Assembly (NCBI GenBank): GCA_003527555.1
Contig: DPWT01000013.1
Coordinates: 1-10,356, forward strand
DNA from: Verrucomicrobiales bacterium
Lineage (GTDB): Bacteria; Verrucomicrobiota; Verrucomicrobiia; Verrucomicrobiales; Akkermansiaceae
Reading direction: 5' to 3'
Length of the DNA: 10,356 bases
A program made the position numbers and the translations under genes. Of the stretch, positions 5,132 to 8,071 are shown in pieces; position 1 is the first letter of the stretch, and every line of letters starts with the position of its first letter. Below the pieces are notes generated by a model that had not been told where the DNA came from, searched no databases, and saw only the letters and a list, made by a program, of their open reading frames with translations.

Positions 5132-5410
5132 TCAGTTGTTTATCTCTAGACGGGGAGCTCCGAATGCACCCTGGATTGTTGCTTTGGGGATCGGTTCCTC
5201 CGAGTGATCAGAAAGGGCTTCCAGCACTGCTTGAGCGCGGGGGACGGCGCCCGGGTTTTGCATCGCATTGAGTGCTTGGTTAAAACCTTCGTAGCGAAAA
5301 TCGGTATTGCCCTCATGTCGATCCAACCGATCGAGAAAAGCGGCAATGTCTATGAGTTTGCAGCGCGCATCCATGAAGTAGAGGTCGAGTATGTCTTCCT
5401 TGTTGGGCAT
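5132..5410 (-). CDS. Small helical protein at the head of the ebo operon
   Basis: This 92-residue cytoplasmic protein begins MPNKEDILDLYFMDARCKLI and continues with IAAFLDRLDRHEGNTDFRYE. It is leucine- and charge-rich, with no membrane segment. The C-terminal part, EEPIPKATIQGAFGAPR, is proline-containing and may be extended. I recall similar short proteins (YF-x-DARCKLIDIAAFLDR) beside EboB-type hydrolases in other phyla, but no function is known to me and the size is well below that of EboA (about 200). The ATG at 5410 is chosen. An in-frame ATG at 5464 would place 18 residues over an inverted repeat and probable promoter region and looks unlikely. It ends 8 nt before eboB. Confidence 0.65.
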   Translation of the reverse strand: MPNKEDILDLYFMDARCKLIDIAAFLDRLDRHEGNTDFRYEGFNQALNAMQNPGAVPRAQAVLEALSDHSEEPIPKATIQGAFGAPRLEINN

Positions 5411-5431
5411 GGATTTATAATAAGTGTTAAA

Positions 5432-5479
5432 CTTGAAAATCCAAACTCCAAATTCGGTTTCCAATTTCTAATTTTCAAG
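5432..5479. repeat. Inverted repeat (9-bp perfect arms) in the divergent promoter region
   Basis: CTTGAAAAT (5432-5440) is mirrored by ATTTTCAAG (5471-5479) around a 30-bp spacer, and weaker complementarity continues inward. It sits between the small ebo-operon gene (start 5410) and the plus-strand gene starting at 5493. On the minus strand TATTAT-like sequence lies just downstream. It may be an operator or a structured leader. It also argues against starting the small gene at 5464. Confidence 0.4.
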
Positions 5480-6884: not shown

Positions 6885-7481
6885 ATGGATTGTAATGTTG
6901 TCCAGTGTAGTTTGTTGGAAACAGCGCATGCGCTTGTATCTTCGAAGACCCTTCCCGGAGATGCTGCAGTGGATGCTACAGTGGGTAATGGTCACGATAC
7001 CTTGTTTCTTGCCCAGTGTGTGGGATTGAAGGGTGAGGTCATTGGCTTCGATGTGCAGCAACAGGCGCTGGATAATGCAAAACATCGGCTGAGGGCTTCT
7101 GACGTATCGATCAATCTCCACTGCGCTGGGCATGAGGAAATGGATACCTATGTGCAGCAGGAAGTTGCGGCAGTGATGTTTAATCTCGGATATCTTCCGG
7201 GCAGTGACAAATCAACAATCACGCAGACTGAGACGACCCTTCTTGCGCTTGGCAAGGCGTTGGCACTACTGAAGAATGGAGGGGTGCTCAGTGTGATGTG
7301 CTACCCTGGGCATGCGGGAGGCGATGTTGAATCGCGTGCCGTAACCAATTTTTTCGAAAACCTAGATGGCTCCCGGATGTTTCGACGCGAGGGAGCGGGT
7401 GAGAAGTCGCCATTTTTAATCGTGATACAAAAAAACGGCCAGCCTCATGTGGAGGCTGACCGCGAATTGGAATTACAATAA
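6885..7481 (+). CDS. mnmM: MnmM/YtqB-family tRNA (mnm5U34) methyltransferase
   Basis: This 198-residue Rossmann methyltransferase matches B. subtilis YtqB closely in motif order: VDATVGNGHDT (29-39) is the SAM-binding loop, FDVQ (55-58) the acidic-strand region, FNLGYLPGSDK (99-109) the catalytic/substrate loop that is the family's hallmark, and YPGHAGG (140-146) and SPFLIVIQKN (175-184) close the fold. YtqB (MnmM) methylates nm5U34 to mnm5U34 in tRNAs that read split codon boxes, using SAM. The start ATG is 3 nt after the oxidase TAG. The last 20 codons contain the convergent gene's terminator hairpin (7429-7461). Its TAA is 5 nt from the TAG of the convergent selenoprotein gene. Confidence 0.85.
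   Translation: MDCNVVQCSLLETAHALVSSKTLPGDAAVDATVGNGHDTLFLAQCVGLKGEVIGFDVQQQALDNAKHRLRASDVSINLHCAGHEEMDTYVQQEVAAVMFNLGYLPGSDKSTITQTETTLLALGKALALLKNGGVLSVMCYPGHAGGDVESRAVTNFFENLDGSRMFRREGAGEKSPFLIVIQKNGQPHVEADRELELQ
7429..7461 (-). terminator. Intrinsic terminator of the selenoprotein gene, inside mnmM
   Basis: Read on the minus strand, a 10-bp stem with one mismatch (arms 7452-7461 and 7437-7446, loop 7447-7451) is followed by a run of seven Ts (7435-7429). That is a textbook Rho-independent terminator starting 26 nt past the TAG at 7489-7487. On the plus strand the tract is an A-run before the stem, so it would not terminate mnmM. It is therefore coded within the last residues of mnmM. Confidence 0.85.
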
Positions 7482-7486
7482 CCTCT

Positions 7487-8071
7487 CTAGAAAGGCTTAC
7501 CTTGCATTGGTTTGACACTCCTAATAGTCATTCTAAATGGTTTTAGTGCCTCAGCAATCTTGTCCTTATCAAGATCGCCAGCTTTGGCCATGTGAAGAGT
7601 GATTCCACGGTTAACATATGCACCAGTGATGCCTTCCACTTTCTCTAAAGCCACACGGGCTTTTTCGTTAGTGTCCGCTCATCCGGTGCCGGTAACTGCG
7701 AGAACATACCCTGCTTCAGGGATCACGGCTTGTGACTTGGAGAAGGATGCCAAACTGAGATTTTTACCTTCGATGGCGGCCTTGGTTTTGGCCTCATCGA
7801 GAGACTTGCCTTCTTCCATGACGACGGTAGCACGGTAGCCCGACATGAGGATTTTTTTGACACCGTCTTGAGATTTAATGGCCATACTGGCCCTTGTGGC
7901 AACGCCTCACCCTTTGCCTTTGACGTTGACTACGTAGACGGTGGCTGTGTTTTGGACTGGAGCCTCTGCGGCATCGTTGTTGATTATGACTTCTGCGACA
8001 TTGGCCTGACCGGGTAACACAGATAACCCGAAAGCGGCAAGCGCAGTAGTTAGTAGGATAGTAGTTTTCAT
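7487..8071 (-). CDS. Secreted tandem HMA-like protein with two in-frame TGA codons; candidate double selenoprotein
   Basis: Reading through two TGAs (codon 55 at 7909-7907 and codon 131 at 7681-7679) gives one 194-residue protein ending at TAG. Residues 1-23 form a signal peptide (MKTTILLTTALAAFGLSVLPGQA), so it is likely periplasmic or exported. Two repeats with a 76-residue period follow, each of HMA-like beta-alpha-beta-beta-alpha-beta character. They open with VKGKG-U-GVA and VTGTG-U-ADT, where U aligns with the first Cys of the HMA V-x-G-M-x-C-x-x-C motif and the second Cys is Ala or Thr. Later positions also match: ATVVMEEGKSLDEAK and ITLHMAKAGDLDKDK. There is no Cys in the protein. Each TGA is followed by a SECIS-like hairpin. 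TGA ends other genes here normally, so general code change is excluded. Alternatives are a doubly mutated pseudogene or sequencing error, both poorly compatible with homologous TGA positions. Function (metal or redox) is unknown. Confidence 0.72.
7647..7663 (-). promoter_or_regulatory. SECIS-like hairpin after the second TGA
   Basis: The transcript has AAAGCC, loop CGUGU, GGCUUU: a perfect 6-bp stem with a 5-nt loop spanning bases 16-32 after the TGA at 7681-7679. Bacterial SECIS elements are short hairpins within the coding sequence just after UGA, with GU in the loop bound by SelB. Here GU is at bases 23-24 after the TGA. It is a strong match in form and position. Confidence 0.6.
7880..7892 (-). 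promoter_or_regulatory. SECIS-like hairpin after the first TGA
   Basis: The transcript has GGCC, loop AGUAU, GGCC, spanning bases 15-27 after the TGA at 7909-7907; two A-U pairs extend the stem after a mismatch. GU in the loop is at bases 20-21 after the TGA, the same register as the essential GU of the E. coli fdhF SECIS. The stem is short, so alone it would be weak evidence. Confidence 0.5.

Follow-up and report, generated by a model that had tools for sequence, protein, structure and literature searches.

The closest described systems are metal-binding or HMA-type proteins, most of which contain selenocysteine (Sec). In the part of the 2026 selenoprotein catalogue on which we draw (PMC13188914), family NF041115 (UxxU_metal_bind) is given as a metal-binding protein and putative mercuric reductase with a UxxU motif and two Sec residues, and passages of PMC2398784 report a Sec-containing MerP represented by two sequences from the GOS ocean metagenome. 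The same part of the catalogue supplies a model of the bacterial SECIS element, with a loop of 3-9 nt, a stem of 4-16 bp, a G in loop positions 1-2 and a distance of 16-37 nt from the UGA, and an energy limit of <= -7.5 kcal/mol (PMC13188914). As far as the excerpts of these sources extend, a tandem-HMA double selenoprotein is found neither among the 119 families of the 2026 catalogue nor in a table published in 2022 (PMC9312934). Literature searches likewise found no such family in the titles and abstract openings of open-licence papers, among the matches listed; the terms used to search for it do not occur in PMC12013277, and they gave passages, in extract, from PMC2398784 and PMC1088965. 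The gene described here looks like a member of an unrecognised selenoprotein family in verrucomicrobial bacteria.

The window, that is, the whole 10,356-nt stretch of DNA that was analysed, comes from contig C9 of a draft genome (2.2 Mb, 287 contigs, 76.6% complete). Its minus-strand frame from 8071 to 7487 translates as 54 residues, a stop, 75 residues, a stop, 63 residues and a final stop. The first-pass annotation had described this frame as open for 194 codons apart from TGA55 and TGA131 and as containing no Cys codon, both of which are borne out by translation; the 76-codon repeat period and the V-x-G-x-G-TGA motif that it reported are also as claimed. Its central proposal, a candidate double-selenocysteine protein, is supported by the Sec machinery of the genome, by the presence of both TGAs in 51/51 distinct members of the family and by covarying SECIS hairpins at both sites. 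We consider it very probable that the gene encodes a double selenoprotein with Sec at both UGAs, and infer the presence of Sec in the product. The features of the locus are as follows.

7487..8071, minus strand: predicted double-selenoprotein gene, from ATG at 8071 through Sec55 and Sec131 to a TAG stop, 194 residues (translation and relatives)
8000..8071, minus strand: putative signal peptide, residues ~1-24 (sequence read by eye)
7724..7948, minus strand: HMA-fold domain 1, residues 42-116 (AlphaFold2 and structure matches)
7907..7909, minus strand: in-frame UGA, predicted Sec55, just ahead of helix 1 of domain 1 (translation and AlphaFold2)
7877..7895, minus strand: candidate SECIS hairpin 1; loop AGUAU starts 18 nt past the UGA; 6/7 family stem positions pair
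7508..7717, minus strand: HMA-fold domain 2, residues 119-188 (AlphaFold2 and structure matches)
7679..7681, minus strand: in-frame UGA, predicted Sec131, aligned to the first Cys of GMTCxxC in CopA/MerA (translation and alignment)
7646..7664, minus strand: candidate SECIS hairpin 2; loop CGUGU starts 21 nt past the UGA; 6/7 family stem positions pair
7489-7487, minus strand: TAG end codon (translation)
7435..7463, minus strand: intrinsic-terminator-like hairpin and T run, 3′ of the gene (consensus match only)

Some relatives carry a lipoprotein-like Cys within the signal-peptide region. The sole match of an Rfam search of the window was mir-8286, far under its gathering score.

The first-pass annotation had named selA, selB, selC and selD as the genes to look for, and all four components are present in the source genome, which encodes a tRNA-Sec (53.2 bits, exceeding the Rfam cut-off; 95 nt with anticodon tca by ARAGORN), SelA, SelB with a score over the cut-off, and a SelD over its cut-off whose gene has one in-frame TGA followed by a hairpin with a loop starting G-U. 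SelA (E<=1e-30) was found in 47/50 genomes with the family versus 70/336 others (Fisher p 1.6e-24, a value that ignores relatedness). The 3/50 family genomes without SelA at E<=1e-30 have SelB over the cut-off, and SelA or SelB is present in 50/50. The converse fails, in that many SelA-bearing genomes are without the double-selenoprotein family. G013, a genome of the same genus that is 98% complete, has SelA and gave no family match in the genome scans.

A match was found in 21 of the 58 genomes that comprise the source and its relatives, and exactly two TGAs were present in 21/21. A scan of 386 genomes from the order gave some match in 58 of them, in 70 match rows; 50/386 have a full-length relative, and exactly two in-frame TGAs occur in 50/50 of these, which bears out the argument of the first-pass annotation that two TGAs at these places were unlikely to arise by chance. 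The other 20/70 rows are short or weak matches to 12 single-HMA UxxxC frames and eight Cys HMA proteins, three of them tandem. The 50 full-length relatives and one more from the 58-genome scan constitute the 51 distinct members, all of which keep both TGAs, at positions equivalent to codons 55 and 131, with a Sec-to-Sec spacing of 75-77 codons and each immediately ahead of helix 1 in its HMA-fold domain; because they are kept in 51/51, sequencing errors are excluded as their source. Named carriers (13 loci) include Akkermansiaceae, Verrucomicrobiaceae and Verrucomicrobiales MAGs, Rubritalea profundi SAORIC-165 and R. marina DSM 17716. Across the phylum, a sample of 387 genomes yielded three full-length members (the source genome plus two from the same family) and six weak partial matches. 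Since the alignment query was applied to no more than eight first-look candidates in any one genome, the genome scans may have missed some members. These scans turned up no full-length Cys form, and 0/51 members have Cys at a Sec position. Where members contain Cys, it sits at least 29 residues ahead of the first Sec, except in L090, L091 and L093, and from their sequences we read the Cys residues upstream of the first Sec as belonging to signal or lipoprotein segments. In L090, a single residue separates the second Sec (UGA at 822-824) from a preceding Cys (G-C-G-U), a possible CxU pair.

The 45 nt past each UGA align without gaps in the 51 members and contain the same hairpin at both sites, three bases further out at site 2. 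At site 1, a 7-position stem encloses a 5-nt loop, mostly (A/C)GU(U/G)N, and 90.1% of cells are paired (49 distinct rows); at site 2, 93.9% are paired (47 distinct rows). Double-sided changes number 49 cells at site 1 versus a shuffled mean of 17.3, with a covariation score of 0.405 versus 0.224, and 91 cells at site 2 versus 33.0, with a score of 0.724 versus 0.277. At neither site did any of 500 shuffles reach the observed paired percentage, double-changed cells or covariation score. Among the five covariation measures used, those that failed to rise above the shuffles were two at site 2 and pair types at site 1: both sides had changed in 5/7 pairs at site 1 and in 6/7 at site 2, the latter no excess over the shuffled 5.8, and pair types were in excess at neither site (13 versus 12.5 at site 1; 13 versus 14.3 at site 2). 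Sliding the stem partner by one base lowers pairing to 45-54%. Codon choice cannot account for the pairing: 320/357 cells are paired at site 1 and 335/357 at site 2, versus means of 217 and 211 and maxima of 240 and 233 in 2000 reshufflings of synonymous codons. After similar sequences were thinned, the corresponding values were 198/217 versus 132 (site 1, n=31) and 124/133 versus 83 (site 2, n=19).

The loop G is invariant (51/51 at both sites), and a hairpin with at least 6/7 pairs and this G follows the UGAs in 45/51 and 49/51 members versus 56/7357 and 52/7357 of the remaining codons in these genes. The 5-nt loop, the 7-position stem, the loop G and the start of the loops 18 and 21 nt past the UGA satisfy the geometry limits of the bacterial SECIS model. 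With energies of -10.4 (site 1) and -8.8 kcal/mol (site 2), both elements of the window lie within the -7.5 limit, which the 45-nt elements of the family passed in 47/51 cases at site 1 and 38/51 at site 2 and missed in four and 13. Within helix 1, the SECIS loop coincides with a codon for Arg (CGT) or Ser (AGT) (7895-7877 and 7664-7646 in the window, and in relatives), and for this reason the protein sequence appears to be under constraint from the RNA structure.

Purifying selection acts beyond both UGAs in the sampled pairs: raw pN/pS was <0.5 between the UGAs and 0.00-0.39 past the second UGA in 16 pairs that were chosen by the analyst, with unequal ends trimmed to the shorter length. This selection, together with the covariation of the SECIS hairpins, implies that conservation acts on the read-through product. 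Sec insertion is in competition with termination, and on this ground the UGAs might act mainly as stops, with the longer form as a minor leaky product; in view of the codon selection past both UGAs and the SECIS covariation, we regard such an arrangement as very improbable. Two in-frame stops in a draft genome that is 76.6% complete and split into 287 contigs could also mark a pseudogene, a sequencing error or two ordinary nonsense mutations. Both TGAs are present, however, in all 51 distinct members, including R. profundi SAORIC-165 and R. marina DSM 17716, and purifying selection continues past them; with 51 conserved members this explanation was rejected, and it is the least probable of those considered.

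Database copies of the protein raise a further alternative, that TGA encodes Trp in these bacteria, as in a table 4-like code. Trp stands at both sites in 11 of 15 protein database matches, and P0020 and P0025 bring the forms with Trp at both sites to 13; P0015 has Trp at site 2 only. In P0003 (locus L011), however, a TGA that precedes the start codon is also given as Trp, as a blanket table-4 translation would give, and the Trp copies therefore look like table-4 translations. A neighbouring gene of the window (5132-5464), conserved in six loci, terminates in TGA, a tRNA-Sec and SECIS hairpins are present, and Cys occupies one of the sites in two database forms, all of which argues against Trp; this reading was rejected as highly improbable. 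Of the two Cys forms, P0010 carries its Cys at site 1, where three further changes lie no more than four residues away, and ends at site 2, while P0011 has Cys at site 2; these protein records suggest that natural Sec-Cys exchange may occur. Another of the 15 matches, P0017, is a three-HMA CxxC protein of the ordinary kind. Besides P0020 and P0025, 11 of the 12 sequences added by later searches include 68-residue fragments that span UGA to UGA, one of them named hypothetical protein, from an Akkermansiaceae MAG. Because databases cut the protein at the UGAs or put Trp there, the family is hidden from annotation.

The AlphaFold2 model contains two beta-alpha-beta-beta-alpha-beta domains, each of which resembles known HMA domains by structure. 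The description 'HMA-like' in the first-pass annotation thus holds for the fold, as judged from the model and structure matches, and is weak at the level of sequence: the Pfam HMA profile gave no match with the window protein and matched 8/21 members (best E 1.4e-5). At position +3, the place of the second CxxC ligand, neither Cys nor Sec occurs at either site in 51/51 members; domain 1 has mostly Ala or Gly there and domain 2 has Thr in 43/51. Neither domain of the members (n=51) thus has a GMxCxxC site with its pair of Cys/Sec ligands, and with the second ligand missing at both sites the protein is not a classical CxxC metallochaperone, despite its fold.

We propose that UGA55 and UGA131 would be decoded as Sec by the SelA/SelB/tRNA-Sec/SelD system, each UGA being directed by its own SECIS hairpin inside the helix-1 codons of its domain, and that the selenoprotein is probably exported and consists of two HMA-fold domains. 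The gene may have originated by duplication of an HMA selenodomain with a built-in SECIS, which is the simplest history given that the two domains are homologous and that matching helix-1 codons (~K-A-R-x-A-L) contain the hairpin in both. Because the protein has a metal-type fold, a start that resembles a signal peptide and two selenols where thiols would be expected, the capture or buffering of soft metal outside the cytoplasm by two selenolates is our first choice of function, ahead of redox, and we give it about an even chance. The absence of a second ligand at both sites in 51/51 members weakens this reading. The same double selenoprotein might instead be a redox protein, its selenols acting on thiols, peroxides or each other, the last as an intramolecular diselenide. 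Consistent with such a role, neither Sec has an adjacent second metal ligand, domain 2 has U-x-x-T in 43/51, UxxT is a motif listed for GPX-like selenoproteins in the parts of the two compilations drawn on (PMC9312934, PMC13188914), and the excerpted catalogue regards most uncharacterised selenoproteins as redox proteins (PMC13188914). Nevertheless, HMA is typically a metal-binding fold, Sec131 occupies the position of the first-ligand Cys, UxxT is confined to domain 2 and no conserved neighbour points to a redox partner, and we hold the redox role as a tentative second reading. Within the metal-capture reading, the two one-selenolate domains could conceivably close on one soft metal ion to form a putative linear Se-M-Se site, an unlikely arrangement in our estimate. 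If true, it would constitute a natural bis-selenolate trap for a metal such as mercury, silver or copper, free of any sulfur thiol ligand, which arose by duplicating an HMA domain bearing a SECIS in its helix.

Neighbouring genes (14 loci with flanks) gave no hint at function. The window and L062, L063, L064, L066 and L067 share upstream pyrG and downstream genes, and L069 and L073 share with this group just the downstream ones; L065 has common neighbours of its own with L073, as L072 has with L074, and L068, L070 and L071 have no neighbouring gene in common with any of the 14 loci compared. We read this sharing as giving no operon evidence. The family is seemingly strictly Sec-dependent, judged by the lack of a full-length Cys form in the genome scans, with two separate Sec sites, each with its own SECIS, in ~190 codons. 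Because named Rubritalea strains carry the gene, the question of why a cell would bear the cost of two Sec in a metal-type domain whose second ligand has been lost is directly testable.

Among the known systems, MbdU (NF045648) likewise has two Sec and a metal-binding label in the catalogue excerpt (PMC13188914), whereas its model spans 468 positions and has a CU motif, and the window gene gave no match to it (cut-off 600 bits). MerP resembles the present protein as a periplasmic HMA protein that is at times a selenoprotein and differs in its single HMA domain; the window protein scores 18 bits with MerP model TIGR02052, versus a cut-off of 92.55. NF041115, the nearest of the catalogued families, is an HMA-type profile with two Sec that weakly matches 20/21 members (best E 1.2e-6, among the matches listed), although it describes a single domain of 74 positions whose two Sec belong to the same UxxU site, in contrast to the two domains with one Sec each found here. 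The window protein reaches 20 bits with it, versus a curated cut-off of 95, and the window gene is not among its matches. Tandem Cys HMA proteins (L094, L112, L113) and the N-terminal domains of CopA (2rml, 1p6t) share the two tandem HMA domains and, unlike the family, have GMTCxxC in both and no Sec. L094, L112 and L113 also have a Cys-rich N-terminus; SelA occurs in two of their three genomes (G326 and G286), and none was seen in the third, G359. These three proteins are possible Cys counterparts of the double selenoprotein. A single-HMA UxxxC candidate, L001, is encoded in G000:C130 (1471-1806, minus strand) as a selenoprotein candidate with GMTU-x-x-x-C and is the only Pfam HMA match of the source genome; its SECIS-like stem is visible by eye and is not the MFE fold, which it is in several of its 12 relatives. 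L001 and these 12 relatives differ from the family in having one domain and in keeping a Cys four residues past the Sec, and they resemble it in their signal-like N-terminus, their HMA domain, a Sec in the aligned column and a hairpin in the corresponding helix-1 codons.
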